From Pseudotabrizicola sp. (GTDB lineage Bacteria > Pseudomonadota > Alphaproteobacteria > Rhodobacterales > Rhodobacteraceae), in contig NZ_JAUSNR010000002.1 of NCBI RefSeq assembly GCF_030656345.1, positions 248,001 through 312,000 on the forward strand: a stretch of DNA of 64,000 nt, read 5' to 3'. The translations under genes were made by a program, and so were the position numbers. Of this stretch, positions 29,893 to 52,609 are shown piece after piece. Within the stretch, counting starts at the first letter, position 1. Each line of letters starts with the position of its first letter. The notes beneath the pieces are model-generated. The model did no database searches and was not told the DNA's origin. It saw only the letters and a program-made list of their open reading frames with translations.

Positions 29893-31116
29893 TCAGCCCT
29901 TGCCCTTGCTGGCAAACAGCTCGGTCAGTTTTTCGGCCTCAACGTTGATGTCATGCCGCTCAAACACGCGCTGACGTGCCGCCTGTCCCATCGCGGTCAG
30001 GCGGTCGGGCGGGGTTGCGGCCATGTCGCGGATTGCCTGTGCCAGACCCGCCGCGTCACCGGCGGGGACCAGCCAGCCGGTATCCGTAGTCACCAGCTCG
30101 GGTATTCCGGCAATTGACGTGGCGATGACCGGGCGCCCCGAGGCCATGGCTTCCATGATCACCACCGGCAAGCCTTCGGCAAAGGATGGCACGATCAGCG
30201 CCTGCGCGCCCCCCAGCGCATCGCGCACCCGCGCCTCGGTCAGCCATCCGGTCAGGGTGACATGGCGGGCAAGGCTGTGCCGGGCAATCGCGGCTTCGAT
30301 CTGCGGCCGCAGCCCGCCGTCACCCACCAGCGTCAGATGCAGATCGGGCAGGGTCTGCACCGCAATCGCCACCGCGTCGATCAGCAGCGCAAAGCCCTTT
30401 TGTTCAGACAACCGCCCGATGGCCACCAGATGCGGCCCGCCCGCAGGCATCGGCACCGGGTCGGGAAAGCGCCACGCCTCGATCCCGCAATGCACCACAT
30501 GCAGCCGGGCCCATGTGCCCGGATCGGTCCAGCGGCACAGCTGGCTGCGGCCAAAGCTGGAAATCGCCACCGCAAAGGCGGCCCGGTCGGCTTTCAGACC
30601 CAAAGACAGGGTGCGGGGCGCGTCAAACTCTTCGGGGCCATGGACGGTAAAGGAATACTCTGGCCCGCCCATCATCGCCGACAGCATGGCGACGGTGGTG
30701 GAATTGGTGCCGAAATGCGCATGCAGATGTGCAAGCCGCAGATCGTGACAGCGCCGCGCCAGATGTGCCGCCTCGGCCAGATAGACCATGTGGCGCAACC
30801 GCCCTCCGGTGCCCGGGGTGGCGCCATCAAACCGCGCCCCGCACCGCCATGCCATGCCAAGCGCGCGCACCGCGCCAAGCGGATGATTTGCCATCCAGCC
30901 AAGCGCAGACAGCACCAGCTTGCCTGCCCCGATTTCCAGAATATGCTCGGTCCGGGCATCTTCGGCCATATCCGCCGGGTCCGGCAGCGCCGCGCGGTCT
31001 GACCGCAACGCAAAGCGGTGGATGTCCCAGCCCTGACGTTCCAGCGCCAGAATCTCGCGCCGGATAAAGGTCAGCGAGCTGCGGGGATAGGTGTTCACCA
31101 GATACGCGATCTTCAA
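29893..31116 (-). CDS. GT4-family glycosyltransferase
   Basis: The protein has 407 aa with a GT-B fold. The N-terminal MKIAYLVNTYPRSSLTFIRREILALERQG is typical of exopolysaccharide GT4 enzymes, HLHAHFGTNSTTVAMLSA lies in the acceptor domain, and the C-terminal donor-binding domain has AIGRLSEQKGFALLIDA, LVGDGGLRPQIEA and PSFAEGLPVVIMEAMASGRPVIAT (the E-x7-E motif). It probably adds one sugar to a lipid-linked intermediate at the inner membrane. Donor and acceptor are unknown. It is the left-hand end of the polysaccharide locus, 129 nt downstream of the Wzz-like gene on the same strand. Confidence 0.93.
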   Translation of the reverse strand: MKIAYLVNTYPRSSLTFIRREILALERQGWDIHRFALRSDRAALPDPADMAEDARTEHILEIGAGKLVLSALGWMANHPLGAVRALGMAWRCGARFDGATPGTGGRLRHMVYLAEAAHLARRCHDLRLAHLHAHFGTNSTTVAMLSAMMGGPEYSFTVHGPEEFDAPRTLSLGLKADRAAFAVAISSFGRSQLCRWTDPGTWARLHVVHCGIEAWRFPDPVPMPAGGPHLVAIGRLSEQKGFALLIDAVAIAVQTLPDLHLTLVGDGGLRPQIEAAIARHSLARHVTLTGWLTEARVRDALGGAQALIVPSFAEGLPVVIMEAMASGRPVIATSIAGIPELVTTDTGWLVPAGDAAGLAQAIRDMAATPPDRLTAMGQAARQRVFERHDINVEAEKLTELFASKGKG

Positions 31117-31245
31117 CGTCAGCTCCGCAACGCTCGGGGGCGGGGGTGCAGCAGCGCGCTTGGGTTCGGACGCGCAACGGGCACAAGGCCCCCGGCGCAG
31201 TCTGATCCGTCCCCCTTTGTCATCTGTTGCGCCCTGCCGGATGTG

Positions 31246-32568
31246 TCACTTCAGGGCCACCGCAAGCAGTGCCAGCACCGCTGCACCCAGCACAAGGCGG
31301 GTGCGGTTTCCGGTCATGCTCCCGGCATCATTCTCGATCAGCGTGGTGATCACCCGGCGCGCCAGCGGCTTGCGGCTGCTGTGCCGGACTTCAGGGATCG
31401 ACACCACCGGGCGCAGGTTCAGCTCGCGCTCCATCTGGGCGGCGGTGCGGATCACCGGGTTCGCCAGATCAAGCAGGAAGGCCACAACAAGCGCCAGCCC
31501 CGCACTGCCGATCAGCCCGGCGATAGCGATTTTCCTGGCCCCGGACCCGACCGCATAATCGGGGGTAATCGCGCGTTCCAGCATGGCAAAGCGTTCGGTC
31601 TGCTGGCGGGCGGCGAGGCTTTGGGCGGTTTCCGCCTCGGCCATGCGCTGCGACACCAGCGAATACTGATCCTGCAGCTGGCGCATCTGCCGGTCATAGG
31701 CCGACAGCGCCCGTTCCACCTCGGCGGTGTTGCCAAGCGTCTCCTCCAGCGCGGTCTTGCGGTCGGTCAGCGGGGCACGCTGTGCCGTCAGTACCGACAG
31801 CCGCTGTGCAATATCCTCCAGCCGCCGCCGGTCGGTAGCACGCGGAGTTGGCAGGGCGCGCAGCTGTGCCTCTTCGCTTTGCAGGCCGGTGGTTTCCTGA
31901 TCCAGCACCCGCAGCGAGGTTTCAATCAGCGCAATTTCATCCTGCCGCGCTTCGCGTACACCGGGCAGGGCGCTGCGGTTGGCATCGCGGTAGGTGGCAA
32001 TCTGGGTCTCCAGCGTGGCGATGTCCTGCCACAACCGGCTTTCCTGCTCCTTGAAAAAGGCGAAACTCGCCTCGGCCGTGGCCCGATTGCCTTCGGCGCC
32101 CAGATCCAGCACGCTTTGCGCCAGATCATTGGCAATCCGCGCCGCATCCTCGGCCCGCCCGGCCCGCGCCACGATGAACAGCGCCGACAACGCCCCCGAT
32201 GGCCCGGTCACGCTTTGAAACCGCACCGACTGCCGCATCGCATCGACCTTGTCTTCCAGCGACATGCCCGGCGCATCGGCAAACAAGCCGTGGCGTTCGA
32301 TCAGCGTGATCATGTTTTCGCGGGTGGTCAGACGCTGTTCGATACTGGTCAGCAATTGCAGCACATTGACCGGCGTCGCCGTCGCCCGCCCGCCATCGGT
32401 GACCATCGGCAGTTCCACCTGCAGAACGGCAGTGGATTCGAACACGGCGGGCCGGGTCTTGGCATAGACAACCGCCAAAGCCGTCCCGATCAGCGTGATC
32501 GCCAGCAGCAGCCAGAACCGGCGCCGGATCAGGTTGAGCAGATCTTCAACGGTCTGGATCGGGCCCAT
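31246..32568 (-). CDS. Wzz/GumC-type polysaccharide chain-length regulator
   Basis: Inner-membrane protein of 440 aa with transmembrane helices at each end (residues ~18-36 FWLLLAITLIGTALAVVYA, ~352-372, and a final one at LVLGAAVLALLAVAL). The long periplasmic region between contains coiled-coil stretches (FFKEQESRLWQDIATLETQ...). This is the Wzz/GNVR (PCP-2 co-polymerase) architecture that sets exopolysaccharide length with Wzy and a CpsD-type kinase. The kinase gene lies 3 nt upstream, the normal two-gene split of the BY-kinase system. Confidence 0.92.
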   Translation of the reverse strand: MGPIQTVEDLLNLIRRRFWLLLAITLIGTALAVVYAKTRPAVFESTAVLQVELPMVTDGGRATATPVNVLQLLTSIEQRLTTRENMITLIERHGLFADAPGMSLEDKVDAMRQSVRFQSVTGPSGALSALFIVARAGRAEDAARIANDLAQSVLDLGAEGNRATAEASFAFFKEQESRLWQDIATLETQIATYRDANRSALPGVREARQDEIALIETSLRVLDQETTGLQSEEAQLRALPTPRATDRRRLEDIAQRLSVLTAQRAPLTDRKTALEETLGNTAEVERALSAYDRQMRQLQDQYSLVSQRMAEAETAQSLAARQQTERFAMLERAITPDYAVGSGARKIAIAGLIGSAGLALVVAFLLDLANPVIRTAAQMERELNLRPVVSIPEVRHSSRKPLARRVITTLIENDAGSMTGNRTRLVLGAAVLALLAVALK

Positions 32569-32571
32569 CGG

Positions 32572-33444
32572 TCAGTCCTGCCCGTAGCGCAGGCGGCCAA
32601 GGCCACGGTCCTGCGCACGGTTCAGGACCACGCCCATCAGCGGAATACGGTTTTCGAACAGCGCTTCGCAGGCGCGGATGTCTTTGGCGGTGCTTTGCTT
32701 GCCATCGACCACCACCAGAACCGCATCCAGCTTGCCCCGCATCGCCAGCACATCATCGCTGACCAGCGCCGGGGGCAGATCCAGCACCATGATGTCGGGG
32801 TCCAGCAGCTGGTCAATCGACTCCAGCGCCTGCGTCGTCTCGGCGCTGTGCAGGATATCGCCCGCATCCGCTGCGGCTTCGGAGTTGAACCCGATCGCCA
32901 GCGTCCTGCCCACCCGCACAAAACGCGACTCCATCGGCTGCGTGCCATCCAGAAAGTCGCGCAACGCGCCGCCGGGGGTTGCGCCGAACAGGTTGTGCAG
33001 GCCGGGGCGACGCAGATCAAGGTCCAGCAGCACGGTCCGGCTGCCGGGGCGGCGGGCAAGGGCCATCGCCAGATTGGCCGCCGTAAAGGACTTGCCGCAG
33101 CCATGGGTGGGCGAGGTGATGCCGATGCGTTTCCAGCCACGCTCTGTCATTGCCTGCGACACGCGGGTGCGCAGAATGTCGAATGCGGTGCCCGCAAGGC
33201 TTTGGTCGGGATTTGAAAACAGACCGTTTCCTGCCAGATGGTCGCCATCAAGGCTGATCGCGGTCAGCGATTCCCACACCCGGGCGGGGCTGAACAGCGC
33301 CAGCGGATAGGTATCGGAAAACACGTCCCGGCTCAGGGTGTTGTCCGGCAGTCTGGACCGCAGGGCAGGCACTTTGCCGGGGCGGAATACCGACACAGGC
33401 ATCAGCCGGTTGCGCCGCGATGGGGCGTCGCCCTCCTCGGCCAT
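32572..33444 (-). CDS. CpsD/CapB-family (BY-kinase-like) ATPase of polysaccharide synthesis
   Basis: Cytoplasmic P-loop ATPase of about 290 aa with the atypical Walker A TSPTHGCGKSFTAANLA, Walker A' VLLDLDLRRPGLHNLFG and Walker B IMVLDLPPAL, as in BY-kinases that partner Wzz-like proteins. Unlike classical CpsD/Wzc the C-terminus has almost no Tyr cluster (only LRYGQD), so autophosphorylation in the usual tail is doubtful. ATG 33444 (MAEEGDAPSRR) is preferred because AGGGGA lies upstream; ATG 33507 would add 21 residues. It ends 3 nt before the Wzz-like gene and is divergent from a GT2 gene. Confidence 0.88.
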   Translation of the reverse strand: MAEEGDAPSRRNRLMPVSVFRPGKVPALRSRLPDNTLSRDVFSDTYPLALFSPARVWESLTAISLDGDHLAGNGLFSNPDQSLAGTAFDILRTRVSQAMTERGWKRIGITSPTHGCGKSFTAANLAMALARRPGSRTVLLDLDLRRPGLHNLFGATPGGALRDFLDGTQPMESRFVRVGRTLAIGFNSEAAADAGDILHSAETTQALESIDQLLDPDIMVLDLPPALVSDDVLAMRGKLDAVLVVVDGKQSTAKDIRACEALFENRIPLMGVVLNRAQDRGLGRLRYGQD

Positions 33445-33788
33445 CGTCAAAATCCCCTGATTCATTAACGTTTGCACTGGTAACGCCAACTTATTGTGTC
33501 GGGCCATGAAATGGCGCGCTCCTGAAAAGCGCAGCGCGGGGGCTGCTTGCCGAAAATCAGACCTGCGAAACAGCAAGCCAAGACCGTTGGTTCCTCTTTG
33601 CCAGCGGCAAGGCACCCATGGTGTCCCGCAACCGCCTCAGACTCACCAGACCCCCGTCCAGTTAGGGGGATGATTAGCAGATTGTCATCCGAAATGAAAG
33701 GCTTTGCCCCTGTCACGCTGCGTGCGGGGCATGGTGTTCCGGCGGGGTCGGCTTTAGGCTTGGCGGGGCAAAAACGGGGGCGGCAGGC
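33445..33788. other. Divergent intergenic region inside the polysaccharide locus
   Basis: 344 nt between the CpsD-like gene (minus) and the GT2 gene (plus). It may contain up to 21 more codons of the CpsD-like protein if ATG 33507 is used. No convincing promoter, operator or RNA structure was seen. It presumably carries the promoters of both gene groups. Confidence 0.5.
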
Positions 33789-34739
33789 ATGACCGGGATC
33801 ATTGATGCAGTGGTGATCGGCCGCAACGAAGGCGACCGGCTGCTGGCCTGTCTTGCATCGCTCATGGGCCAGGTCCGGCGGCTGGTCTATGTTGACAGCG
33901 GGTCCACCGATGGCTCGGTCGCGGCGGCGCAGGCGGCGGGGGCACAGGTGATCGCGCTGGATATGCGCCAGCCCTTCACAGCGGCGCGGGCGCGCAATGC
34001 CGGGCTGATGGCGCTGGCAGCCGACCCGCCGCAGTTTGTGCAACTGATCGACGGCGATTGCCAGCTGGACTGCGGCTGGATCACGGCGGCGCGACAGGCG
34101 TTTGACGATCATCCCGCAGCCGTGGTGGTCTGTGGCCGACGGGCCGAGCGGTTTCCCGAAGCTTCGGTCTATAATGCGATGGCCGACCGGGAATGGAACA
34201 CGCCGGTGGGGCTGGCCACAGCCTGCGGCGGCGATGCGCTGATGCGCTATGATGCGGTGATGGCAGTGGGCGGCTACCGCGACGATCTGATCGCGGGGGA
34301 AGAGCCGGAGCTGTGCCTGCGCCTGCGCCGCGCCGGGGGCACCGTCTGGCGGATTGACGCGCCGATGACCCTGCATGATGCCGCCTTGCTGCGCTTTGGC
34401 CAGTGGTGGCGGCGGACGGTCCGGTCAGGCCATGCCTTTGCCGAAGGGGCGGCGCTGCATGGTGCCGGGCCGGAACGGCATTGGGTGGCCGAGCATCGCC
34501 GCGCGCTGCTTTGGGGCGTGGCGGGGCCGCTGGCCGTCGTCGCGGCGGGGCTGGTGCATCCGCTGGGCTGGGCGCTGGTGCTGGCCTATCCGGCGCAGGT
34601 CATCCGGCTGGCGCAGCGCGAAGGGTGGTCATGGGCCGTGCTGATCGTGGTCGGGCGTTTTGCCGAGGCGCGCGGCGCCTTGGGCTACCACCTGAACCGG
34701 CTGCTGGGCCGCCGCCGCGGATTGATCGAGTATAAATAG
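33789..34739 (+). CDS. GT2-family glycosyltransferase with C-terminal membrane segments
   Basis: The protein has 316 aa. The GT-A N-terminus is IIDAVVIGRNEGDRLLACLASL, followed by VYVDSGSTDGSV and the metal/UDP region QLIDGDCQLDCGW (DxD-type). EEPELCLRLRRAGGTVWRID is the ED-x-D/E catalytic segment. The C-terminal ~90 residues include hydrophobic helices (LLWGVAGPLAVVAAGLVHPLGWALVLAYPAQVI), so the enzyme is membrane-bound and likely works on a polyprenyl-linked sugar. Its last 111 nt overlap the end of the convergent WecG/TagA gene. Confidence 0.9.
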   Translation: MTGIIDAVVIGRNEGDRLLACLASLMGQVRRLVYVDSGSTDGSVAAAQAAGAQVIALDMRQPFTAARARNAGLMALAADPPQFVQLIDGDCQLDCGWITAARQAFDDHPAAVVVCGRRAERFPEASVYNAMADREWNTPVGLATACGGDALMRYDAVMAVGGYRDDLIAGEEPELCLRLRRAGGTVWRIDAPMTLHDAALLRFGQWWRRTVRSGHAFAEGAALHGAGPERHWVAEHRRALLWGVAGPLAVVAAGLVHPLGWALVLAYPAQVIRLAQREGWSWAVLIVVGRFAEARGALGYHLNRLLGRRRGLIEYK

Positions 34740-35495
34740 CGCCCGGGCGTTGCGCTGCCGCAGCGCCCCGACCACCTGACCGGGCAGGATCGCCACGCAG
34801 GCCACATAGCGCGGGATCAGGCGACGCGGGGCAGACATCACCCGCCACAGCCATTCCAGCGCCAGCTTGCGCATCCAGTGCGGGGCGCGTGTCTGCTGGC
34901 CCGCCACAAAATCAAGCCCCGCACCAAAGCCGCAAAACCCGATGGCGGGGGCCTGCGTGCGGCCAAAGGCGGCGAAGGCTTCCTGCCGGGGCGCGGACAG
35001 CGAGATGATGCACAGCCGCGCGCCAGAGGCCCGCATCGCGGCCAGCGCGCTGACGGCTTCGGCACCCGTCGGGTCAAACCCCATCGCAGGCGCGCCGGAC
35101 CAGACCACCCGCAGGCCGGGCATTTCGGCGTTCAGGTTCAGCGCCGCCTGCGCCAGCACGGCGGGGGTAGAGCCGTAGAACGCCACCGCAATCCCATCCG
35201 CAACCGCCATTTCCAGCAGGGGACGCAGCAGGTCAGACCCGGGGACGAGTGACACCGGAAGGCCAGCCAGCCGGGACAGCCAGACGATGGGGTTGCCATC
35301 GGCCACGATCAGATCCTGCGCCGCATAGATCTGCCGGTAGCTGGCAGAGGCGCGCAGTTTGACCAGATGGTCGAGGTTGATGGTGGCCAGAGAAAACCCC
35401 TGCCCGGACAGCAGCCTTGCCCGCACCTCGGCCAGCAGGCGGGGCCGGTCGGGGACGTTCACGGTGATGGTCTGGTCAGGGAACTGGAACCGCAA
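34629..35495 (-). CDS. WecG/TagA/CpsF-family (GT26) glycosyltransferase
   Basis: The protein has 288 aa. The GT26 hallmark order is present: INLDHLVKLRAS near the start, DLIVADGNPIVWLSRLAG, FYGSTPAVLAQAALNL, GLRVVWSG, a C-terminal GAPRQE-like helix (LSAPRQEAFAAFG), GFCGFGAGLDFVAGQQTRAPHWMRKLALEWLWR. These enzymes add N-acetylmannosaminuronate- or ManNAc-type sugars to undecaprenyl-PP-linked GlcNAc. The catalytic domain ends by ~residue 255; the last ~35 residues overlap the antisense end of the GT2 gene and look like run-on sequence. Transcription points away from the BLUF gene region. Confidence 0.92.
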   Translation of the reverse strand: MRFQFPDQTITVNVPDRPRLLAEVRARLLSGQGFSLATINLDHLVKLRASASYRQIYAAQDLIVADGNPIVWLSRLAGLPVSLVPGSDLLRPLLEMAVADGIAVAFYGSTPAVLAQAALNLNAEMPGLRVVWSGAPAMGFDPTGAEAVSALAAMRASGARLCIISLSAPRQEAFAAFGRTQAPAIGFCGFGAGLDFVAGQQTRAPHWMRKLALEWLWRVMSAPRRLIPRYVACVAILPGQVVGALRQRNARALFILDQSAAAAQQPVQVVAQGAARLGKTPDHDQHGP

Positions 35496-36002
35496 GGCTC
35501 GGACTTTCGGGAGGGGAGCCGGGGCCCTTGATCAGGGGCGCAGGCACAGCGGGGCAAAATCGAAAAACGTGCTTTCCCACTGTGTTACAACGGGATGGTT
35601 CCTTTAATTTCAACAGCTTGGCTTTTCTGTGTTCATAATTTGTTAACACTTTGGTCCCTTAGTCAACAGGTTTGACCGGCGGTTCATGACAAAGGTTAAG
35701 ACCGCCAGAGCATGGTTTGATCTGGATCAAATCATGTATCTGGAATATATGTTAAAAATCCCCACAGACGCTTGGCAGCGCATCGGAGTTTCGCTAGCGT
35801 AGGGCAATCTGTGGTAGAAAAGCGCATGCTTTTGTCCCGCATGATGTGTGGCAAGGTCCGCCTTGTTTCAAAGCGTCTGACAGAGTGTCCGGGCCGCCCG
35901 GACCAGCAGATCGCGGGTATCGCCGCTGTTTGCGTCACGTCTTCGCCCAGGGCTGCCTCCCTGGTTACACCCAGAGATTTAAGCAAAGATATACGGTTCA
36001 GA
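35496..36002. other. 507-nt intergenic region with FNR box between the GT26 and BLUF genes
   Basis: This region is more AT-rich than its surroundings and contains no convincing coding frame. It holds the FNR/FnrL-type box at 35717-35730 and several T/A-rich stretches (around 35600-35660) that could be promoter elements for the divergent WecG-like (minus) and BLUF (plus) genes. Open frames here lack ribosome-binding sites and family resemblance. Confidence 0.6.
35717..35730. promoter_or_regulatory. FNR/FnrL/FixK-type binding site
   Basis: TTGAT-CTGG-ATCAA is an exact match to the FNR-family consensus TTGATnnnnATCAA. It lies 222 nt upstream of the GT26 gene and 287 nt upstream of the BLUF gene. 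This suggests oxygen-responsive control of one or both, though the distances are long for a class II activator site. Confidence 0.75.
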
Positions 36003-36461
36003 ATGACTCATCACATCGCCTATACCAGCGCCGCGCCCGAGCCGGTCGACCCCGGCCTTCTGGCCAGTTTGCTGAAGGTGTCGGTGCGCAACAATACACG
36101 TGACGGGATCACCGGGGTGTTGCTCTATCACGATCAGTCGTATTTTCAGATTCTGGAAGGCGAGAAAGACGTGGTTGAGGCGTGCTATGCGCGGATCGTC
36201 TGCGACCCCCGGCATGTCGGTGTGCTGCGGCTCTGGAACCAGACAGCCGAGGAGCGGGTGTTTTCGCATTGGGCGATGGGCTATGCCGGGCCGGATCAGC
36301 TGCAGCTTTTCGAAGGCGCGGCGCAGGACAGGCTGACCCGGTTCATGCGCCATCGCAACGGCGAGACGCCGGGCGAGCCGGTGGCTTTGGCGCTGGCGCG
36401 TCAGATGTACAAGCGGTTCAGATTTGGCATGGCGCGCTATGGCGGCCCGATCCTGACCTGA
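36003..36461 (+). CDS. Short BLUF-domain blue-light photoreceptor
   Basis: The protein has 152 aa, almost entirely BLUF domain plus a short C-terminal helical tail, as in BlrB of Rhodobacter. Flavin-site residues are visible: Tyr7 (IAYTSAA), Asn30/31 (VRNNTRDGITG), Gln49 (YFQILEG) and Trp90 (HWAMGY). It therefore senses blue light through FAD and must act via a partner, since no output domain is attached. ATG 36003 begins the conserved domain directly; the ribosome-binding site is weak. It lies within the polysaccharide/PKS-NRPS locus, so a light effect on that locus is plausible. Confidence 0.92.
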   Translation: MTHHIAYTSAAPEPVDPGLLASLLKVSVRNNTRDGITGVLLYHDQSYFQILEGEKDVVEACYARIVCDPRHVGVLRLWNQTAEERVFSHWAMGYAGPDQLQLFEGAAQDRLTRFMRHRNGETPGEPVALALARQMYKRFRFGMARYGGPILT

Positions 36462-37095: not shown

Positions 37096-37315
37096 GGATC
37101 TTTGCCCTTTCCACAGCGCAAGCGGCTGCAAGGCTGTGGTCTATAGCTCAGGTTGCGCCGCAGTGCCACCCGCTGCGCCCGGTCCGGCTTTGCCCTTTCT
37201 GTGCCGCAATCAAGGCATGGTCATGCCGTGAAGCCATGGCAAGACCCGCAGCAGCGGCAAGACAGGGGGCACGATCCGTGCTATCGCCGCCCCGGAAAGC
37301 AGCAGCCAGACACCG

Positions 37316-38725
37316 ATGCCGATTGCGAATACGCTTGCCTATCTGATGCTGGCCCTGTGGCCGGTGGCTTCGTGGATACTGTTCACGAAGCTTGATCCGG
37401 CACGCGCGCTGATCTGGACAGTGCTGGGCGCCTATATGCTGCTGCCGCCGGTCATCGCGCTTGATATGCCGGTGGTGCCGGGCATCGACAAGGATGCGGT
37501 GGCCGGGCTGGCGGCGCTGCTGGCGGTGCTGTTTTTGCTGCGGCAGCGGGTCGGCGTCCTGCCCGCATCGCGCATCGGGCGTGGGCTGATCGTGCTGTAT
37601 ATCCTCAGCCCGTTTGCCACCGTGCTGACCAATGGTGACGAGATCTGGTTTGAGGCCTCTGGCCTGCAGGCGCTGCGGATCTATGACAGTGTGGCGGTTG
37701 TGGCCAATCAGGCGATTGCGCTGGTGCCGTTCTTTCTGGCCCGGCGGTTTCTGGCGACAGATCAGGCGATGCGGGCCATCGTGGTGGCGCTGGTAATCGC
37801 CGGGCTGATCTATTCCCTGCCGATGTTGTTTGAAACGCAGATGTCGCCGCAGCTGAACCTGTGGATCTATGGCTTTTTCCAGCATGAATTCAGTCAGGCC
37901 ATCCGGTTTGGCGGCTACCGGCCCTTTGTGTTCATGCCGCACGGGCTGTGGGTCGCGTTCTTTGCGATGATGTGTTTCATCGCGGCAGTCACGCTGATGC
38001 GGGTGGGGCCAGCGGCCTCGCGGCCGGGGCAGGTGCTGGTGGCGGGCTATCTGTTGGTGGTGCTGCTGCTGTGCCTCAGCGCCGGGCCGGTTGTCTATGC
38101 CCTGCTGCTGGCCCCGCTGGTGCTGATCGCGCCGCCACGGTTGCAGATATTGGTCGCAGGTCTGATGGTTGCGGTGGTGATCACCTATCCGCTGCTGCGC
38201 GGGCTGCAAATGGTGCCGGTGCAGGACTTGCTGACCTTCTTCACCGGGATGAACGCCGAACGCGGGGCCTCGCTGGCGTTCCGGATCACTAATGAAGAGC
38301 TGCTGCTGGACCGTGCGGCAGAGCGCCCGTGGTTCGGCTGGGGCCTCTACGGGCGCGGGTTGTTGCACGACCCTGTCACCGGCCAGATCAATGTGATCGC
38401 CGATGGCGGCTGGATCATCACGCTGGGCACCTTTGGCTGGGCCGGGTATATTGCGGAATTCGGCCTGCTGTCCCTGCCTGTGGGGCTGATGGCGCGCGAG
38501 GCGTTGCGCCAGCCTGCCGCCCTGCTGTCGCCCTTTGCCGCAGCGGTGGCGCTTTTGCTGGCGGTCAATCTGGTGGATCTGTTGCCCAATGACACGCTGA
38601 TCCCCTTTACCTGGCTGATGGCCGGGGCAATGCTGGGCCATGCCGAGGCGCTGCGCAGCGCGTGGAAAGCCGGGCGCGGGCAGGCAGCAGGCCACGCCCT
38701 GCCGCCGGGGCGGACCGTGATATGA
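37316..38725 (+). CDS. Wzy/O-antigen-ligase-like polysaccharide polymerase
   Basis: Polytopic inner-membrane protein of 469 aa with about 11-13 predicted hydrophobic helices and a large loop (residues ~305-355) containing GMNAERGASLAFRITNEELLLDRAAERPWFGWGLYGRG, the region where Wzy_C/O-antigen-ligase proteins carry the conserved RP(W/L)xGxG motif. It likely polymerises or ligates the lipid-linked repeat unit on the periplasmic side. The GT4 gene downstream overlaps its stop (ATGA). Confidence 0.85.
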   Translation: MPIANTLAYLMLALWPVASWILFTKLDPARALIWTVLGAYMLLPPVIALDMPVVPGIDKDAVAGLAALLAVLFLLRQRVGVLPASRIGRGLIVLYILSPFATVLTNGDEIWFEASGLQALRIYDSVAVVANQAIALVPFFLARRFLATDQAMRAIVVALVIAGLIYSLPMLFETQMSPQLNLWIYGFFQHEFSQAIRFGGYRPFVFMPHGLWVAFFAMMCFIAAVTLMRVGPAASRPGQVLVAGYLLVVLLLCLSAGPVVYALLLAPLVLIAPPRLQILVAGLMVAVVITYPLLRGLQMVPVQDLLTFFTGMNAERGASLAFRITNEELLLDRAAERPWFGWGLYGRGLLHDPVTGQINVIADGGWIITLGTFGWAGYIAEFGLLSLPVGLMAREALRQPAALLSPFAAAVALLLAVNLVDLLPNDTLIPFTWLMAGAMLGHAEALRSAWKAGRGQAAGHALPPGRTVI

Positions 38726-40014
38726 GCCGGGTTTTCCGCCCCCGCGTGTTGCTGCTGGCCGAGGCTGCGAACCCCGAATGGGTATCGGTGCCGCTGGTCG
38801 GCTGGTCGATGGCGCAAGCCTTGGCCCGGGTGGCCGATGTGCATCTGGTGACACAGGTGCGCAACCGCGACGCTGTGCTGCGCGCCGGGCTGGTCGAGGG
38901 CACGGATTTTACCGCGATTGACTCCGAGGCGTTGGCGCGGCCCTTGTGGAAGCTGGGCAGCTTTCTGACCGGCGGGCGCGGGGGGTGGACGATTCAGCAG
39001 GCGGTGGCCACCATCAGCTATCCGTACTTTGAGCGTCTGGTCTGGCAGCGCTTTGGTGCCGACATCCGCGCCGGGCGCTATGACGTGGTGCACCGGATCA
39101 CACCGCTGTCGCCGGTGCAGCAAAGCCCGATCGCCGCGAAGTGCCGCCGTGCGGGCGTGCCCTTCGTGCTGGGGCCGATCAACGGCGGCGTGCCATGGCC
39201 ATCGGGATTTGAGGCCGAAATGGCGCGCGAACGCGAATGGCTGTCGCAGGTGCGGGGCCTCTACCGCGCGCTGCCGGGGCGGCAGGGCACTTTGCGGGCC
39301 GATGCCATTCTGGCCGGATCGCGGCAAACGCTGCGTGAGATTCCGGCGGCGCATCGGACCCGTGTGATCTACCTGCCCGAAAACGCGGTGGACCCGGCGC
39401 GGTTCAACGCGCTTGCCAGCCACAACGCGCCGGGGCCGATGCGCGCCTGCTTCATCGGGCGTCTGGTGCCGCTGAAGGGCGTTGATATGCTGATCGCAGC
39501 TGCCGCGCCCCTGCTGCGCAGCGGCAGGCTGGTGCTCGACATCATCGGCGACGGGGACATGATGCCCGCGTTGCGCGCGCAGGCCGCCGAATTTGGTGCG
39601 GCTGTCACCTTCCACGGCTGGCAGGACCATGCGCAGGTGCAGGATCTCGCCGCGCGCTGTCAGCTGCTGGCCTTTCCGTCGATCCGCGAATTCGGCGGCG
39701 GCGTGGTGCTGGAGGCGATGGCGCTGGGCCTTGCCCCCATTGTCGTCGATTACGCGGGCCCGGCAGAGCTGGTCACCGATGCGACCGGCTGGAAGGTCCC
39801 CATCACCGGGCGCACGGGGGTGATCGCCGGGCTGTCCGCGCGGCTGGCATATTGCGTGGACCATCCGGACGAGGTGGCGCAAAAGGGGCAGGCCGCGCGC
39901 GACCGGGTGCAGGCGTTGTTCACATGGGACCGCAAGGCGGCGCAGATCCTCGACATCTACCGCTGGGTGCTGGACCCGGCGCAGCCAAAGCCCGCGCCGT
40001 TCGGCCCGGGTTAA
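38722..40014 (+). CDS. GT4-family glycosyltransferase
   Basis: GT-B enzyme of 430 aa: PRVLLLAEAANPEWVSVPLVGWSMAQALA at the N-terminus, DVVHRITPLSPVQQSP, then the donor domain with ACFIGRLVPLKGVDMLIAAAAPLL, DIIGDGDMMPALRAQA, HGWQDHAQVQDLAARC and PSIREFGGGVVLEAMALGLAPIVVDYAGPAELV (E-x7-E region). ATG 38722 overlaps the Wzy-like stop by 4 nt. The PKS gene begins 68 nt after its stop on the same strand, so polymerase, GT4 and PKS are probably one transcription unit. Confidence 0.93.
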   Translation: MSRVFRPRVLLLAEAANPEWVSVPLVGWSMAQALARVADVHLVTQVRNRDAVLRAGLVEGTDFTAIDSEALARPLWKLGSFLTGGRGGWTIQQAVATISYPYFERLVWQRFGADIRAGRYDVVHRITPLSPVQQSPIAAKCRRAGVPFVLGPINGGVPWPSGFEAEMAREREWLSQVRGLYRALPGRQGTLRADAILAGSRQTLREIPAAHRTRVIYLPENAVDPARFNALASHNAPGPMRACFIGRLVPLKGVDMLIAAAAPLLRSGRLVLDIIGDGDMMPALRAQAAEFGAAVTFHGWQDHAQVQDLAARCQLLAFPSIREFGGGVVLEAMALGLAPIVVDYAGPAELVTDATGWKVPITGRTGVIAGLSARLAYCVDHPDEVAQKGQAARDRVQALFTWDRKAAQILDIYRWVLDPAQPKPAPFGPG

Positions 40015-40051
40015 GTCAGTAAAAGTTCCTTATTTCGGCCAAGTTTATTCT

Positions 40052-40060: not shown

Positions 40061-40082
40061 GCACCGATTGTGCCTTCTGAGT

Positions 40083-46481: not shown

Positions 46482-46482
46482 C

Positions 46483-47457
46483 ATGGCCAGCGTGCTGACA
46501 GTCATTCTGAACTGGCGGACGGCAGAGATGACCCTGCGCTCGGCCGAGGCCGCGTTGGTGGCGATGCAGGGCATCGACGGCGCGGTGGTGATCGTGGACA
46601 ACGATTCCGGCGATGGCAGTTTTGAGCAGATGACATCAGAAGTGGCCGCGCGCGGCTGGGACTGTGGCCCGCACGCCGTGCGGGTGCTGCAATCGGGGCG
46701 CAATGGCGGCTTTGGCGCGGGCAACAACTTTGGCATCAGGGCCGGTCTGCCGGGGGGCGCGCAGCCTGATTATGTCTACCTTTTGAACTCCGATGCCTTT
46801 CCGGCCCCCGATGCCATCGGTGCCCTGCTGGCGCATCTGGAGGCCCATCCGGCCACCGGCTTTGCCGGCAGCCGCATTCATGGGACCGACGGCGTGCCGC
46901 ATCACAGCGCCTTCCGCTTTCCGTCGATTGCGGGCGAATTTGAACAGGCCGCGCGCTTTGGCCCGATCACCCGCCTGCTGCGCGGATCAGTCGTGGCACC
47001 CCCATTGCCCGAAGCCACGGGCCGGGTGGACTGGCTGGCCGGGGCCAGCCTGATGATGCGCAGCACCGTGCTGGACCGCATCGGGTTGTTTGATGAGACG
47101 TTTTTCCTGTATTTTGAGGAAACAGAACTGTGCCTGCGCGCCGCCCGCGCCGGGTTCCCCACCGATTATGTGGTGGAAAGCCAGGTCACGCATATCGGGT
47201 CGGTGTCGACCGGCATGAAAGGGTGGCAGCGGGTGCCAGGGTTCTGGCTGGATTCTCGGATGTATTATTACACCCGTTCGCATGGCCGGGCCTATGCGCT
47301 GGCGGCCACAGCGGCGCATGTGGCGGGCGGGCTGATCTGGCGGCTGCGGGCGGTGATCCAGCGTAAAGATGTGATCGACCCCGCGCATTACCTTCGGGAT
47401 ATGTCTGCCCACGCGCTGCGCTGGGCGGTTTCCGGCTTCCGGCCGGTGGCAAAGTAA
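46483..47457 (+). CDS. GT2-family glycosyltransferase (WbbL/rhamnosyltransferase-like)
   Basis: GT-A enzyme of 324 aa: SVLTVILNWRTAEMTLRSAEAAL, VVIVDNDSGDGS, NGGFGAGNNFGIR, the metal-binding segment YLLNSDAFPAPDAIG, then WLAGASLMMRSTVLDRIGLFDETFFLYFEETELCLRARR-like residues (ETELCLRAARAG). This set, especially GGFGxGNN and the LFDExFFxYxExxDL-type motif, marks rhamnosyltransferase-like GT2 enzymes. It starts 1 nt after the PKS stop and ends 27 nt before the NRPS, so it is physically wedged between the two synthases. That suggests the PKS/NRPS product is glycosylated. Confidence 0.93.
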   Translation: MASVLTVILNWRTAEMTLRSAEAALVAMQGIDGAVVIVDNDSGDGSFEQMTSEVAARGWDCGPHAVRVLQSGRNGGFGAGNNFGIRAGLPGGAQPDYVYLLNSDAFPAPDAIGALLAHLEAHPATGFAGSRIHGTDGVPHHSAFRFPSIAGEFEQAARFGPITRLLRGSVVAPPLPEATGRVDWLAGASLMMRSTVLDRIGLFDETFFLYFEETELCLRAARAGFPTDYVVESQVTHIGSVSTGMKGWQRVPGFWLDSRMYYYTRSHGRAYALAATAAHVAGGLIWRLRAVIQRKDVIDPAHYLRDMSAHALRWAVSGFRPVAK

Positions 47458-47484
47458 AGCCGCTGCGGCGGCGAGGAGAGTGTG

Positions 47485-50400
47485 ATGGGTCTGACAGCGC
47501 TTCTGATCGGCAATGAAAGTCTGACACAGGCCTGCGGGGCCGCATGGCTGGCGCGCGGGCATCGGCTGGTGGCAGTGGTCACGCGTGATCCGCAGGTGCG
47601 CACCTGGGCAGTGGCGCAGGGTCTGCGGGTCGAAGCGCCGGGTGCGGGGCTTGAGGCGCGGCTGGCGGGGCTGTCGTGTGACTGGCTGCTGTCGATCGCC
47701 AACCTGTCACTGGTGCCTGCGGCGGTGCGCGGCATGGCGGCGCGCGGCGCGGTGAATTTTCACGACGGCCCCCTGCCACGCTATGCCGGGCTGAACGCGC
47801 CGGTCTGGGCATTGCTGGCAGGCGAGCCGCAGCACGGCATCACCTGGCATTTGATGACCGACGGCGTGGATGAGGGCGACATTCTGGAGCAGCGTCTGTT
47901 TGATGTGCTGCCCGGCGATACAGCGCTGACCCTCAACACGCGGTGCTTTGGGGCGGGGGTGGAAAGCTTTCCGGCAGTGATGGCGCAGATGGAAAGCGGG
48001 CTGCGGCCCGTGGCGCAGGATTTCAGCGCGCGTCGGGTGTTTGCCCGCGCCGACCGGCCAGCGGCCTTCGGGCGGCTGGACTTTGCGCAGCCCGCCGACA
48101 CGGTGGCGCGGATGGTGCGGGCGCTGGACCATGGCCGCTACTGGAACCCGCTGACCACGGCCAAGATTGAGGGCGCGTTCGGCGTGCTGAACGTGGGCGC
48201 GGCGGATGTGGCGGATGGGCAGGGGGTGCCGGGGGCGGTGCTGTCGTCCTCGCCCGAAGGGGTGGTGGTGGCTTGCGGGTCGGGCGCGGTGCGCCTGCAC
48301 CGGCTGACCTGCCAGACACGCGGTCTGCCGGTGTGCCCGTCTACGGTGCGTGATCTGGCACCTTTGACCGATGCGGGCGCACTGACCGACGCCTTGGCAG
48401 CCTTGGTGCCGGTTGAGGCCGGGCTGCGCAAGCGGCTGGCGGCGATGTCGCCGCTGGTGGTTACAGGCGCGGGCGAGGGCGCCGGCTGGCTGCGGCTGGA
48501 AGTTGCGGGCGACGCCACCACGCTTGCGGTGGCCATGGCGCGGGTGTCGGGGCAGGACAGCCCCGATGTGGCGCTGTCCGTCGCACCCGGGCTGGCGGGC
48601 TATACCAGCGGCTGGGTGCCGGTGCGGGTGGCGACCCATGGTACGGTTGGTGCTGCGCGCGCCGCGTTGCTGGCCGAACGCGCGCCGGGGTTCCCGCTGG
48701 ACCTGATGACGCGCGACGCGAGCCTGGCCGATCTGGCGATGCCGCAGGTGGCGGTGTCGCTGCACGGCGCGCCGGTGCCGGGCGCTGTGATCACGCTTGC
48801 CGATCGCGCATTGCATGCCGACCTGTCGAAGGTCTCTGAGGCCGAGGCGCGGGCGCTGGCCGGGCGTCTGTCTTACGTCGCGGGGGAGGCCCGCGATGCA
48901 GATGCGATATCGTCGCTGCCCATGCTGTCACCGCACGAACGTCATGCTGTTTTATACGACGTGAACCATACGTTTGCCATACGTGAACCATACTGCGTGC
49001 ATCAGGCGTTTGAGGCGCAGGTGCAGCGCACACCGGACGCCCCGGCAATCAGCTTTGAGGCGGTGGAACTGACCTACGCCGCCCTGAATGCGCGGGCGAA
49101 CCGGGTGGCCCATGTGCTGCGCAATATGGGCGTGGGGCCGGGGGTGCTGGTCGGCCTGCACATCCGCCGCAGTGTCGATATGCTGGTGGGCGCGCTGGCC
49201 ATTCAAAAGGCAGGCGGGGCTTACGTTCCGATGGACCCGGCCTATCCCCTTGAGCGAACAGCGCTTTTTATTGAGGATTCCGCCTGCCCGGTGATTGTGA
49301 CCACCAGTGATCTGGCGGCTGACCTGACCGGGCAGGCGCCGCCGCTGTGTCTGGATACCGATGGGCGGATCGCCGGGGCGTCTGATGCAAACCCCACATC
49401 TGGTGTCACTCCGGGCGATCTGGCCTATATGATCTACACGTCCGGCTCCACCGGGCGGCCCAAGGGCGTGATGGTCGAACACCGCAACGTGGCGAACTTC
49501 TTCACCGGGATGGACCAACGTATCGGCACCGATCCGGGGGTCTGGCTGGCCGTCACCTCGCTGTCGTTCGACATCTCGGTGCTGGAGCTGTTCTGGACCC
49601 TGGCGCGCGGGTTCAAGGTGGTGATTTCGTCGGATGAGAACCGGGCACTGGTGTCTTCGGGGCGCATCGTTTCGGATAAAAAGATAGATTTTTCATTGTA
49701 TTACTGGGGGAATGACGATGGCATCGGCCCCAAGAAATACGAGCTGCTGCTGGAAGGTGCCAAGTTCGCCGACAGCCACGGCTTCGTGGCCGTATGGACG
49801 CCTGAACGGCATTTCCATGCTTTTGGCGGCCCATATCCGAACCCCTCGGTAACAGGCGCGGCCGTTGCGGCGGTCACCAGGAACATTGGCGTGCGGGCGG
49901 GGTCTTGCGTGGTGCCGCTGCACCATCCGGCGCGGATTGCCGAGGAATGGGCGGTGATCGACAACCTGACCGGCGGCCGCGCCGGGATGGCGATTGCCAG
50001 CGGCTGGCAACCGGATGACTTTGTGCTGCGCCCGGAAAATACCCCGCCAAACAACAAGTTGGCAATGTATGCCGCCGCCGATCAGGTGCGTCGGCTGTGG
50101 CGCGGCGAGGCGGTGGAATTCCCCACCGCTGACGGCACGATGTTCCCGGTGGTGACCCAGCCGCGCCCTGTGTCGGCGGAACTGCCGCTGTGGGTGACCA
50201 CGGCGGGCAACCCCGAGACATGGCGCGAAGCGGGGGAAATGGGGGTCAATGTGCTGACCCACCTGCTGGGCCAGTCGGTGGATGAGGTGGCGGGCAAGAT
50301 CAAGATCTACCGCGAGGCGCGCGCCAGGGCGGGCCATGACCCGCAGGCGGGCGTGGTGACCTTGATGCTGCATTCCTACGTCGGGCGCGACCGGGCGCAG

Positions 50401-51987
50401 GTGCGGCGCGTGGCCGAAGCACCGATGAAAGCGTACCTCGCGGCGGCGGTCGGGCTGGTGAAACAATATGCCTGGGCCTTTCCGGCCTTCAAGAAACCCC
50501 ACGGTGTAACCAACCCGATGGAGATCGATCTGCGGTCGCTAAGTGCCGAGGAAAACGAGGCAATTCTGGATTTCGCCTTTCAGCGCTATTTTGAGGATTC
50601 GGGTCTGTTTGGCACGGTTGACGATGCCTTGGCGCGGGTCGAACAGCTTAAGCGTATCGGCGTGGGCGAGGTGGCCTGCCTGATCGATTATGGCATCGCG
50701 CCCGAGCAGGTGATGGAGGGGCTGTACCCGCTGGCCGAAGTGGTGCGGCGCGCTAACGCGGGCGGCGGGGTTGCGGCGGATGATTATTCCATCGCGGCGC
50801 AACTGATCCGGCACCGGGTGACCCATCTGCAATGCACGCCATCCATGGCGCGGATGATCGCGATGAATGAAGACTCGCGCGGCGCGCTGGCGGGGGTGAA
50901 AACCCTGATGGTGGGCGGCGAGGCGCTGCCGGGGGCCTTGGTGCAGGATCTGCGGGCCGCCTGTAATGCGCGCATTCTGAACATGTATGGGCCCACGGAG
51001 ACCACGATCTGGTCTTCGGTGGAAGAGGTGACCACCACGGAAAGTGTGTCGAACATCGGCACGCCCTTGGCCAATCAGCAGATGTATGTGCTGGATGCGG
51101 CGCAACAGCCTGTGCCGGTTGGCACTGCGGGCGAGTTGTGGATCGGCGGCGATGGCGTCTCGCGCGGCTATTGGCAGCGCGACGATCTGACGGCAGAGCG
51201 GTTTGTGGATGACCCGTTCGTGACGCCAGACCGGGCCTGCCCATGGCGCGCGCAGATGTACCGGACCGGCGATCTGGTGCGCAGGCGCCCGGATGGAAAA
51301 ATCGATTTCCTTGGCCGCACCGACCATCAGGTCAAGCTGCGCGGCTACCGGATTGAACTGGGCGAGATCGAGGCGGTGCTGGAGGCGCAGCCGGGGGTGC
51401 GCCAAGCCGTGGTGATGGCGCGCGAGGACAGCCCCGGCGATGTGCGGCTGGTGGGCTATGTGACCGGGACGGCACAAGAAGTTGCGCTGCGCGCGGCGCT
51501 GGGCGCGGTGTTGCCCGACCATATGGTGCCCGCGCATATCGTGACGCTGGAGGCATTCCCGCTGACCCCCAACCGCAAGGTGGACCGCAAGGCGCTGCCG
51601 ATGCCGGGGGTGCGGGTGGCCGAAGCGGCGGCTTTTGTCGCGCCCACATCGGATATTGAGGCGCAGATCGCCGCGGTCTGGGCGCGGGTGCTGGGGGTGC
51701 CAAAGGTCGGGGCCAGGGACAACTTCTTTGCGCTGGGCGGCCACTCCCTGCTGGCGGTGCAGGCGCATCGTGAGATCCGCGAGGCGCTGGGGGCTATGAG
51801 GCTGTCGATCACCGATATCTTCCGCTTTCCCACATTGTCCGCCTTGGCCGCACATCTGGATGACGGGCCAAAGCCGGTGGCAGTGGTGACCCTGCCCGCC
51901 GGGCTGGCCGGGCAGGCGGGGGCGCGGGTGGATGCCATGGCGCGCAGGCGTGCGATGCGGGCAGGGCGGACGGGCGTGGATGCCTGA
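47485..51987 (+). CDS. NRPS: formyltransferase, condensation remnant, adenylation domain with inserted luciferase-like monooxygenase, PCP
   Basis: Megasynthase of 1500 aa. Residues ~1-275 resemble methionyl-tRNA formyltransferase, with catalytic Asn91, His93 (NFHDGPLP) and Asp129 (DEGDIL). Residues ~310-510 look like a degenerate condensation region without HHxxxDG, ending in the usual linker LSPHERHAVLYDVNHT. The adenylation domain starts near 525 (A3 YTSGSTGRPKG). After FDISVLELF (A4) a ~360-residue FMN-dependent luciferase-like monooxygenase is inserted (~734-1092: DFSLYYWGND, WTPERHFHAFGG, RAGSCVVPLHHP), then A5 resumes (NMYGPTETTIWSS). Specificity positions read D-I-L-Q-M-G-M-I-W-K, 8 of 10 equal to the glycine code DILQLGLIWK. 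PCP Ser1421 lies in LGGHSL. There is no thioesterase. The start is ATG 47485, with GAGGAG 6 nt upstream. The insertion site matches the myxothiazol MtaG-type architecture. Confidence 0.93.
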   Translation: MGLTALLIGNESLTQACGAAWLARGHRLVAVVTRDPQVRTWAVAQGLRVEAPGAGLEARLAGLSCDWLLSIANLSLVPAAVRGMAARGAVNFHDGPLPRYAGLNAPVWALLAGEPQHGITWHLMTDGVDEGDILEQRLFDVLPGDTALTLNTRCFGAGVESFPAVMAQMESGLRPVAQDFSARRVFARADRPAAFGRLDFAQPADTVARMVRALDHGRYWNPLTTAKIEGAFGVLNVGAADVADGQGVPGAVLSSSPEGVVVACGSGAVRLHRLTCQTRGLPVCPSTVRDLAPLTDAGALTDALAALVPVEAGLRKRLAAMSPLVVTGAGEGAGWLRLEVAGDATTLAVAMARVSGQDSPDVALSVAPGLAGYTSGWVPVRVATHGTVGAARAALLAERAPGFPLDLMTRDASLADLAMPQVAVSLHGAPVPGAVITLADRALHADLSKVSEAEARALAGRLSYVAGEARDADAISSLPMLSPHERHAVLYDVNHTFAIREPYCVHQAFEAQVQRTPDAPAISFEAVELTYAALNARANRVAHVLRNMGVGPGVLVGLHIRRSVDMLVGALAIQKAGGAYVPMDPAYPLERTALFIEDSACPVIVTTSDLAADLTGQAPPLCLDTDGRIAGASDANPTSGVTPGDLAYMIYTSGSTGRPKGVMVEHRNVANFFTGMDQRIGTDPGVWLAVTSLSFDISVLELFWTLARGFKVVISSDENRALVSSGRIVSDKKIDFSLYYWGNDDGIGPKKYELLLEGAKFADSHGFVAVWTPERHFHAFGGPYPNPSVTGAAVAAVTRNIGVRAGSCVVPLHHPARIAEEWAVIDNLTGGRAGMAIASGWQPDDFVLRPENTPPNNKLAMYAAADQVRRLWRGEAVEFPTADGTMFPVVTQPRPVSAELPLWVTTAGNPETWREAGEMGVNVLTHLLGQSVDEVAGKIKIYREARARAGHDPQAGVVTLMLHSYVGRDRAQVRRVAEAPMKAYLAAAVGLVKQYAWAFPAFKKPHGVTNPMEIDLRSLSAEENEAILDFAFQRYFEDSGLFGTVDDALARVEQLKRIGVGEVACLIDYGIAPEQVMEGLYPLAEVVRRANAGGGVAADDYSIAAQLIRHRVTHLQCTPSMARMIAMNEDSRGALAGVKTLMVGGEALPGALVQDLRAACNARILNMYGPTETTIWSSVEEVTTTESVSNIGTPLANQQMYVLDAAQQPVPVGTAGELWIGGDGVSRGYWQRDDLTAERFVDDPFVTPDRACPWRAQMYRTGDLVRRRPDGKIDFLGRTDHQVKLRGYRIELGEIEAVLEAQPGVRQAVVMAREDSPGDVRLVGYVTGTAQEVALRAALGAVLPDHMVPAHIVTLEAFPLTPNRKVDRKALPMPGVRVAEAAAFVAPTSDIEAQIAAVWARVLGVPKVGARDNFFALGGHSLLAVQAHREIREALGAMRLSITDIFRFPTLSALAAHLDDGPKPVAVVTLPAGLAGQAGARVDAMARRRAMRAGRTGVDA

Positions 51988-52609
51988 CGCGGGCCTGCTG
52001 GCCGCCCTGCGGGAGATTGCTCCCGGGGGTGCCGGGATCGGCTGGGCCGATCCGCGCGCCGAATATGCCCTGATGCCGGGAGAGGTTTTGCCGGGCGCAG
52101 TGCCTGCGCGGATGCGCGAATTTGCGGCGGGGCGGACGGCGGCGCGCACCGCCTTGGCCGGGATCGGGCTTGCGCCGCTGGCCATTGGGCAGGGGGCTGA
52201 TCGTGCGCCGGTCTGGCCTGCAGGGGTGGCCGGGTCGATCACCCACAGCCGCAGCCAGTGTCTGGCGGTGGTGATGTCCGCGCAACTGTGCCGGGGGATT
52301 GGGATTGATCTGGAGGAGGATACCCCGCTGGAGCCTGCCTTGTGGCCTGATATCCTGCGCCCCGAGGAACAGGCGGGGATCACCGGCGCGCAGGCCAAGG
52401 CGGTGTTCTGTGCCAAGGAAGCGGCGTTCAAGGCGCAGTACGCGGTCAGTCGCACGCTTTATGGTTTTGACGGCATGCGGGTAGAGATGGAGGGCGACCG
52501 CTTTGCCGCCGTTTTCATGCGAAGCGTGCCGCCCTTTGCCATCGGCGACCGGATCAGCGGGCGCATTCTGCGGGCCGGGGGCCATGTGCTGACGCTGGCC
52601 AGTCTTTGA
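51980..52609 (+). CDS. 4'-phosphopantetheinyl transferase (EntD/Sfp type)
   Basis: The protein has 209 aa. It contains GSITHSRSQCLAVV, the Mg/CoA motif GIGIDLEED and the C-terminal FCAKEAAFKAQY (WxxKEAxxK-type). It installs the phosphopantetheine arm on carrier domains, here most simply the PKS ACP (Ser1797) and NRPS PCP (Ser1421). The ATG at 51980 overlaps the NRPS end by 8 nt (stop at 51985-51987), so it is translationally coupled. This marks the right end of the biosynthetic locus and argues that the synthases are functional and self-sufficient in activation. Confidence 0.93.
   Translation: MPDAGLLAALREIAPGGAGIGWADPRAEYALMPGEVLPGAVPARMREFAAGRTAARTALAGIGLAPLAIGQGADRAPVWPAGVAGSITHSRSQCLAVVMSAQLCRGIGIDLEEDTPLEPALWPDILRPEEQAGITGAQAKAVFCAKEAAFKAQYAVSRTLYGFDGMRVEMEGDRFAAVFMRSVPPFAIGDRISGRILRAGGHVLTLASL

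Follow-up and report, generated by a model that had tools for sequence, protein, structure and literature searches.

An NRPS-PKS cassette with a predicted N-formylglycine starter module recurs in exopolysaccharide loci of Rhodobacteraceae and may serve to decorate a surface glycan

Introduction

It has been suggested that capsule polyketide synthases (PKSs) of the WcbR/RkpA type make a lipid that anchors or carries the polymer. In the wcb and rkp loci, a type I PKS gene lies amid genes for the synthesis and export of capsular polysaccharide (PMC3908369). Here we analyze a locus at positions 29893-52609 of a 64,000-nt stretch of Pseudotabrizicola sp. DNA (the window), in which exopolysaccharide (EPS) genes are followed by a cassette encoding a PKS, a GT2 glycosyltransferase, a non-ribosomal peptide synthetase (NRPS) and a 4′-phosphopantetheinyl transferase (PPTase). 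Like WcbR and RkpA, the window PKS is a single-module type I enzyme encoded in a polysaccharide locus, but it differs from them in having a terminal thioesterase (TE), no match to an enoyl reductase (ER), a ketoreductase (KR) that precedes the dehydratase (DH) and an accompanying NRPS starter, a distinction drawn from domain content.

Parts of the NRPS also have described counterparts. In a survey of glycine-type adenylation (A) domains that contain a monooxygenase (MOX), the MOX is described, in the accessible part of the paper, as cleaving the glycine backbone and leaving a terminal amide (PMC12283262). The window enzyme likewise carries a monooxygenase within a predicted glycine-type A domain, with nine of the ten code residues shared, but its module is a chain starter and has a PKS as its neighbor; either the outcome here must differ or the cleavage must be used otherwise. 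LgrA of linear gramicidin synthesis has an N-terminal formyltransferase (FT) domain fused to a starter consisting of an A domain and a peptidyl carrier domain (PCP); the window FT, in contrast, resembles Met-tRNA formyltransferase and ArnA more than LgrA in sequence (3.2e-20 versus 3.6e-4) and is followed by half of a condensation (C) domain. Luciferase-like monooxygenases (LLMs) of the TIGR04020 subfamily are presented, in the accessible part of PMC8739492, as hydroxylases or Baeyer-Villiger-type enzymes. They are joined or adjacent to A domains also in FT-less clusters of Nostoc, Streptomyces and Agrobacterium, but these are ordinary clusters without an alignment to the FT region and without matches to our polysaccharide panel. 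The copy in Paracoccus marcusii CP157 was assigned to an HSL-NRPS-PKS hybrid cluster with a likely bioactive product, and PKS-NRPS-HSR hybrid clusters were counted in 60% of the Paracoccus strains compared (accessible part of PMC8273931). Among the papers listed by searches of open-licence PMC text, we found none that ties the FT-LLM NRPS/PKS cassette to polysaccharide, and no such link is given in the accessible parts of PMC8273931, PMC12283262, PMC3908369, PMC4062626, PMC8739492 and PMC4359443.

Results

An earlier note on this DNA had described EPS machinery combined in one locus with a PKS, an NRPS and their own PPTase. All of the genes that it named are present at 29893-52609, as judged by open reading frames (ORFs) and matches to Pfam and other profiles, and the association of the PKS/NRPS/PPTase set with polysaccharide genes extends far beyond the window genome. 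Using a profile of the LLM region (E <= 1e-100) in a family sample with nearly one genome per genus, we found the NRPS in 106 of 295 genomes, 101 near-complete and five as fragments. Flanks of 20 kb were taken from 14 genomes with a near-complete match (nine of the same genus, five of other genera of the family) and labeled with a panel built from RefSeq-annotated relatives and the window; panel polysaccharide genes lay beside the cassette in 14/14. Four of the nine same-genus genomes (G002, G005, G006 and G015) had no panel match for the GT4-Wzz-kinase part, and a Wzy-like gene still adjoined the cassette. The GT4 gene was kept beside it in the first three; G015 has the Wzy-like gene alone and is the weakest case of polysaccharide context, since the Wzy-like label is itself soft.

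Distances to two Pfam-defined markers, WecG (PF03808) and the flippase Wzx (PF13440), were determined in the first 80 of the 101 near-complete genomes. WecG and/or Wzx lay within 15 kb of the NRPS in 70 of them; within 20 kb, WecG was found in 65/80 (median 12.8 kb; about 1% would be expected for a random site) and Wzx in 53/80. We also examined 80 named loci, which are among at least 472 confirmed relatives from a genome scan. At least one polysaccharide-type gene was nearby in 73 of these and at least three in 61, with 17 loci read with an extension. Sets regularly situated away from polysaccharide genes, which the earlier note had named as counting against it, were thus not what the synteny comparison revealed. 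An accident of a single genome was ruled out by the 14 flanks, the 106 occurrences and the WecG/Wzx distances in 80 genomes, and the link between cassette and polysaccharide genes is strong. Pairwise distances among the NRPSs correlated with those of the PKS (Mantel r 0.87, 68 loci), the GT2 (r 0.68, 73 loci) and the PPTase (r 0.57, 68 loci), the observed r being reached in 0/999 permutations in each case, although common descent of the species could yield part of this signal.

Plasmids carry the cassette as well. Coverage reached 80% or more in 16 plasmid records, and 10 of the 11 that were opened placed it in polysaccharide loci, eight by annotation and two (L141 and L142) by the panel; in L027, an Aliiroseovarius plasmid, its surroundings are nos genes, and an exosortase and a GT2 gene lie at a greater distance. 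Deinococcus actinosclerus, a member of another phylum, has the cassette (74% coverage) in a polysaccharide locus and encodes the FT by a gene of its own. In P. marcusii CP157 the FT is annotated as a separate gene overlapping the NRPS gene, and there a frame change is the alternative. The Aminobacter, Shinella and Deinococcus loci resemble the window locus. The earlier note had argued from the GT2 gene between PKS and NRPS that the genes serve one product; in Aminobacter and Shinella the PKS and NRPS genes are divergently oriented and lack an intervening GT2, and the polysaccharide context is retained, so we dropped that argument as not universal. Near the cassette of Ruegeria sp. SCSIO 43209 (L022, 28500-32414), genes for a UbiA-type prenyltransferase, GtrA, an FAD-binding oxidoreductase and a short-chain dehydrogenase/reductase are consecutive, a row that to our eye is reminiscent of the polyprenyl-phosphate arabinose pathway.

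By title, the 80 listed loci belong almost entirely to genera of Rhodobacteraceae/Roseobacteraceae, together with one Hydrogenophaga assembly. Homologues of the PKS were present in 77, of the GT2 in 76 and of the PPTase in 69, and in 76 the frame of the NRPS was longer than 1400 aa. Outside the family the NRPS is rare, with 5/289 genomes of a class sample and 12/299 of a phylum sample at 1e-120, both counts including the window genome and family members. Among five outside-family genomes that were opened, G750 and G855, from other alphaproteobacterial families, showed polysaccharide loci, and G614 (40-43% identity) had sugar-type genes about 4-14 kb off; G882 and G753 showed other NRPS/PKS clusters with zero matches to the polysaccharide panel. 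Within the genus, G003 gave a weak match alone and no such NRPS was found there; several other same-genus genomes are fragmentary. The assembly named Hydrogenophaga pseudoflava, presumably betaproteobacterial, carries the cassette and an NRPS2-like gene (L065 and L165; 79% identity in the LLM region), reflecting either recent transfer or contamination.

The NRPS (47482..51987, + strand, ATG at 47485) has the order FT-(truncated C)-A[LLM]-PCP according to Pfam and TIGRFAM-type profiles. The FT domain (47482..48336; PF00551/PF02911), with the motif NFHDGPLPRYAG, is related to Met-tRNA formyltransferase and ArnA by sequence and by fold: these proteins were the structural matches of a model with a mean pLDDT of 94.3 built from 36 sequences. 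Residues N92, H94 and D130 are invariant across those sequences and correspond to the N-x-H...D pattern that we take to be catalytic; among 99 NRPSs, a regular expression missed N-x-H in two and a looser second motif in 42. An FT with N-x-H...D is thus fused 5′ of A-PCP, the arrangement of a formylating initiation module. A Pfam search of the NRPS gave no condensation match, and hhalign aligned residues 306-489 (48397..48948) with positions 177-433 of the 434 of a C-domain profile (94.9%), identifying the C-terminal part of a C domain without its active-site half. The half that was lost is presumably the one bearing the catalytic histidines, so no functional upstream condensation domain is predicted, as in an initiation module.

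The A domain is split into an N-terminal part (49009..49644; PF00501) and a C-terminal part (50788..51597; TIGR01733, PF13193) by the TIGR04020 LLM (49690..50742; 5.6e-143, 476 bits against a cut-off of 244), inserted between the FDISVLELFWTLARG and QCTPSMARM stretches, and is followed by the PCP (51664..51858; PF00550) with GGHSL. Read by eye, with its positions as we assume them to map onto this domain, the A code is D-I-L-Q-M-G-M-I-W-K, one residue off DILQLGMIWK. The latter is the code of four glycine domains with a monooxygenase (accessible part of PMC12283262). FDISVLE, Q and NMYGPTETTIW recur among the 14 entries listed in our NRPS motif survey, and the NRPS active-site motifs recur across the 99 NRPSs of the fetched loci. 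A glycine-like code points to a glycine-type A domain, and the domain content of the NRPS suggests a module that starts the chain with N-formylglycine, which the inserted enzyme probably oxidizes.

The PKS (40083, or 40092, to 46481, + strand) has the Pfam domain order ketosynthase (KS), acyltransferase (AT), KR, DH, acyl carrier protein (ACP) and TE, with no Pfam match to an ER. Regular expressions run on 89 PKSs of the fetched loci, in which a miss is not proof of loss, matched the KS cysteine stretch in 88, the AT serine in 89, KR YxxxN in 85, the DH histidine motif in 71, a second DH motif in 76, the ACP serine in 80 and TE GxSxG in 77. In most matched PKSs the AT motif is of the DIAAHS type, neither HAFH nor YASH, which we take to be the two textbook extender motifs, and this does not settle whether the extender is malonyl or another unit. 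The earlier note had proposed that an N-formylglycyl unit is extended once, reduced and dehydrated. All elements of this domain logic (glycine, formylation, one extension, KR, DH and TE) are in place and conserved; the exact acid is a prediction from it.

The window is part of a 357-kb contig of a Rhodobacteraceae genome (Pseudotabrizicola, G000) with a contamination estimate of 7.8%. Genes for the Wzy-like protein, a GT4, the PKS, the GT2, the NRPS and the PPTase form a co-directional block on the + strand (37316-52609) with short gaps or overlaps. The one-strand spacing given by the earlier note was confirmed: 68 nt before the PKS (start 40083), 1 nt between PKS and GT2, 27 nt between GT2 and NRPS (start 47485) and an 8-nt overlap of NRPS and PPTase. 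Its one-locus layout stands insofar as EPS genes are followed by PKS and NRPS genes; only 37316-52609 is co-directional, and two genes had been omitted, that of a BLUF protein and 36493-37131. As genes of the left part lie on both strands, the 22.7 kb is not one operon. A scan of 36900-53200 gave six promoter-like sites (2.4 expected) and 17 terminator-like sites (9.9 expected), which provides no evidence on transcription units, and a tRNA search of the window found none.

Wzz, a tyrosine kinase and glycosyltransferases are the components of a Wzx/Wzy-type EPS locus that are present here. The - strand of its left part encodes an EpsE-like GT4 glycosyltransferase (29893..31116; PF13692/PF00534, NF041876 at 2.6e-63, below cut-off), a Wzz-type chain-length protein (31246..32568; PF02706 over and TIGR03007 below cut-off), a CpsD-type (BY) kinase (32572..33465; PF10609, with TIGR03018/TIGR01007 below cut-off for ORF 32572-33615) and a WecG/TagA/CpsF (GT26) glycosyltransferase (34629..35495; PF03808 at 7.8e-44, TIGR00696 over cut-off); one GT2 glycosyltransferase is on the + strand (33789..34739; PF00535). 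The first gene of the block (37316..38725, +) had no Pfam match even at E 5, and its Wzy-like label is based on position, with a homologue 5′ of the PKS in 9/9 same-genus genomes, and on its resemblance to unnamed proteins that occupy the equivalent position elsewhere; annotated neighbors resembling it are "hypothetical", one having a sub-cut-off Wzy_C match. An EpsH-like GT4 (38722..40014, +; NF041879 at 1.5e-141, below cut-off; present in 8/9 same-genus genomes) follows. The GT2 between PKS and NRPS occupies 46483..47457 (+; PF13641/PF00535) and the PPTase 51980..52609 (+; PF17837 and PF01648 for ORF 51932-52609). The BLUF blue-light sensor domain (36003..36461, +; PF04940 in ORF 35772-36461) belongs to a protein of uncertain membership in the locus, with a homologue at the equivalent place in two of nine same-genus genomes (G009 and G011); its position in the middle of an EPS locus makes light control of the polymer possible. 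The unnamed gene 36493-37131 (-) has counterparts with 81-87% identity at the equivalent place in three same-genus genomes.

In 33/80 loci there is a homologue of a protein encoded directly 3′ of the NRPS or PPTase. Pfam gave nothing over cut-off for it, DUF4886 being the best at E about 0.01, and a structure model (mean pLDDT 94.0, 23 sequences) matched a DUF4886 protein, the PatB peptidoglycan O-acetyltransferase and GDSL esterases, with a best E of 8e-7 and modest query TM-scores of about 0.3-0.45. The protein has an N-terminal helix and keeps GHSLV and D-x-I-H motifs; the transfer or trimming of glycan acyl groups would suit an SGNH enzyme that acts outside the cytoplasm. The flanks of the nine same-genus genomes showed no homologue; this protein is therefore not the general transferase.

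Some loci depart from the pattern. No WecG or Wzx was found within 30 kb on the NRPS contig in 10/80 genomes, seven of which were fetched (G093, G230 and G280 being left out): kinase and Wzz genes are present in G243 and G163, contig ends truncate the loci of G222 and G183, and the other three (G208, G249 and G281) are weighed below. The seven named loci without a panel gene are L061, L069, L086, L095, L096, L111 and L132. Of these, L086, L096, L111 and L132 come from short pieces, and L061 and L069 were read without an extension; for L095, genes for a kinase, Wzz and a Wzy-like protein occur upstream in G243, taken as its genome. Polysaccharide panel genes were found in 0/3 of the FT-less monooxygenase-NRPS relatives from Nostoc, Streptomyces and Agrobacterium, which sit in siderophore or other ordinary clusters, and the window on either side of the locus (1-27000 and 55001-64000) gave zero panel matches. 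Fifteen other NRPS/PKS loci served as a control, ten from the genus and five from other genera of the family. The ten same-genus controls had one Wzx match each, with a second NRPS adjoining the flippase gene. In the window genome this C-A-PCP-TE protein of 1323 aa (L152 6475-11819, contig C38) is encoded by a gene that overlaps the Wzx gene by 4 nt, and the Wzx match was found beside it in 10/10 genus genomes looked at, the window's included (L144-L153). The Paracoccus loci L025 and L140 have an NRPS of this second type (41% identical in L025) within the EPS locus of the PKS-NRPS cassette.

Discussion

On balance we favor the view that the cassette is an acyl-group assembly line dedicated to Wzx/Wzy-type EPS loci, decorating a surface glycan with a short acyl group derived from N-formylglycine. 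The link to the polymer comes from the recurrent gene context and the chemistry from domain logic; because the assembly line sits among surface-polymer genes, its product is probably a polymer decoration and not a free antibiotic. In such a pathway, the PPTase would prime the carrier domains, the A domain would activate glycine, and the fused FT, taking the place of the lost catalytic half of the C domain, would N-formylate it, giving a chain-starting module. The inserted FMN monooxygenase would probably hydroxylate the alpha carbon of glycine. The PKS would then extend the chain once, reduce it and dehydrate it, and the TE would hand over or release a short formamido-C4 enoyl group, which would go onto a repeat-unit sugar, or onto a dedicated sugar added by the GT2, and exit with the polymer. 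In many relatives the SGNH-type protein may adjust or move the acyl group outside. We infer the substrate from the A code, and from domain content and context the hydroxylation, chain length, acyl structure, acceptor, transfer step, attaching enzyme and biological role.

Several observations weigh against this view. We identified no acyl transferase shared by all loci; the candidates for attachment are the TE, the GT2 or some further transferase. There is no Wzx flippase in the window locus, the two PF13440 matches (1e-20) of its genome lying on contigs C38 and C43; since it lacks one, it may serve one polymer together with the second-NRPS/Wzx locus. G281 is a true exception, having the NRPS-PKS pair with no GT2 or panel polysaccharide genes in 40 kb, and G249 has the pair without them in 35 kb, on a contig that ends 4.8 kb past the PKS. 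L027 and G208 (L176-L177) combine an FT-LLM NRPS of 44-46% identity with larger NRPS/PKS genes (~9 kb) and probably represent a different product family. Among the five controls from other genera, a sugar-transferase homologue lies 3.2 kb from a PKS gene in L154 (847-14299, G022 C1) and 0.6 kb in L156 (1250-14782, G021 C36), and a weak Wza match (21% identity) lies beside the NRPS in L157 (13649-17762, G032 C19), so that megasynthases near polysaccharide genes may be commoner in the family than this cassette alone. Finally, the panel was built from related loci and counts based on it are not independent, whereas the Pfam distances are.

The short acid may instead be glycosylated by the GT2 to give a small molecule, with the EPS machinery a mere neighbor, as the GT2 homologues in 76/80 named loci and the bare pairs of G281 and G249 would allow; we consider this unlikely, given that Aminobacter and Shinella keep the polysaccharide context without a GT2 between PKS and NRPS and that WecG and/or Wzx are close in 70/80 genomes. 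Almost equally doubtful, in our judgment, is an ordinary secondary metabolite, an antimicrobial or a signal, whose genes happen to lie in gene-rich EPS islands. The accessible text of PMC8273931 reads the CP157 cluster, which is on a plasmid, in this way, with a possible antimicrobial role; the three FT-less relatives belong to siderophore clusters or others, and sugar genes also adjoin certain further PKS/NRPS clusters of the family. However, the EPS context recurs over many genera, two orders and two phyla, and the main text of PMC8273931 uses "polysaccharide" or "saccharide" 0 times, so that the link was not considered there.

A further possibility is that the PKS, in the style of WcbR/RkpA, supplies a lipid that anchors or carries the polymer. 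This would account for a single-module PKS in a polysaccharide locus, for which the wcb/rkp loci are the precedent (accessible part of PMC3908369), but it agrees poorly with the terminal TE, the lack of an ER match and a glycine-loading NRPS that co-diverges with the PKS; we regard it as the least probable of these explanations. Only slightly less speculative is an extension of the decorated-glycan proposal itself, in which hydroxylated N-formylglycine, extended once, would yield a 4-formamido-4-hydroxycrotonyl group on the repeat units of a distinct class of surface glycan. Such a group could lose formamide to become a 4-oxocrotonyl group, an aldehyde-enoyl capable of cross-linking amines, and the polymer could thereby harden to a glue or biofilm matrix; the second NRPS may add an amino acid to that polymer.

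Genome mining classes loci of this kind, such as that of P. marcusii CP157, as orphan NRPS-PKS clusters and seeks free antibiotics from them; if the product is bound to a polymer, searches based on extracts would miss it. A decorated glycan would widen assembly-line enzymology from small molecules to the decoration of polymers. With the NRPS present in about one third of the sampled Rhodobacteraceae genomes, such a role would be relevant to biofilms and to attachment in a family that is abundant in aquatic habitats.

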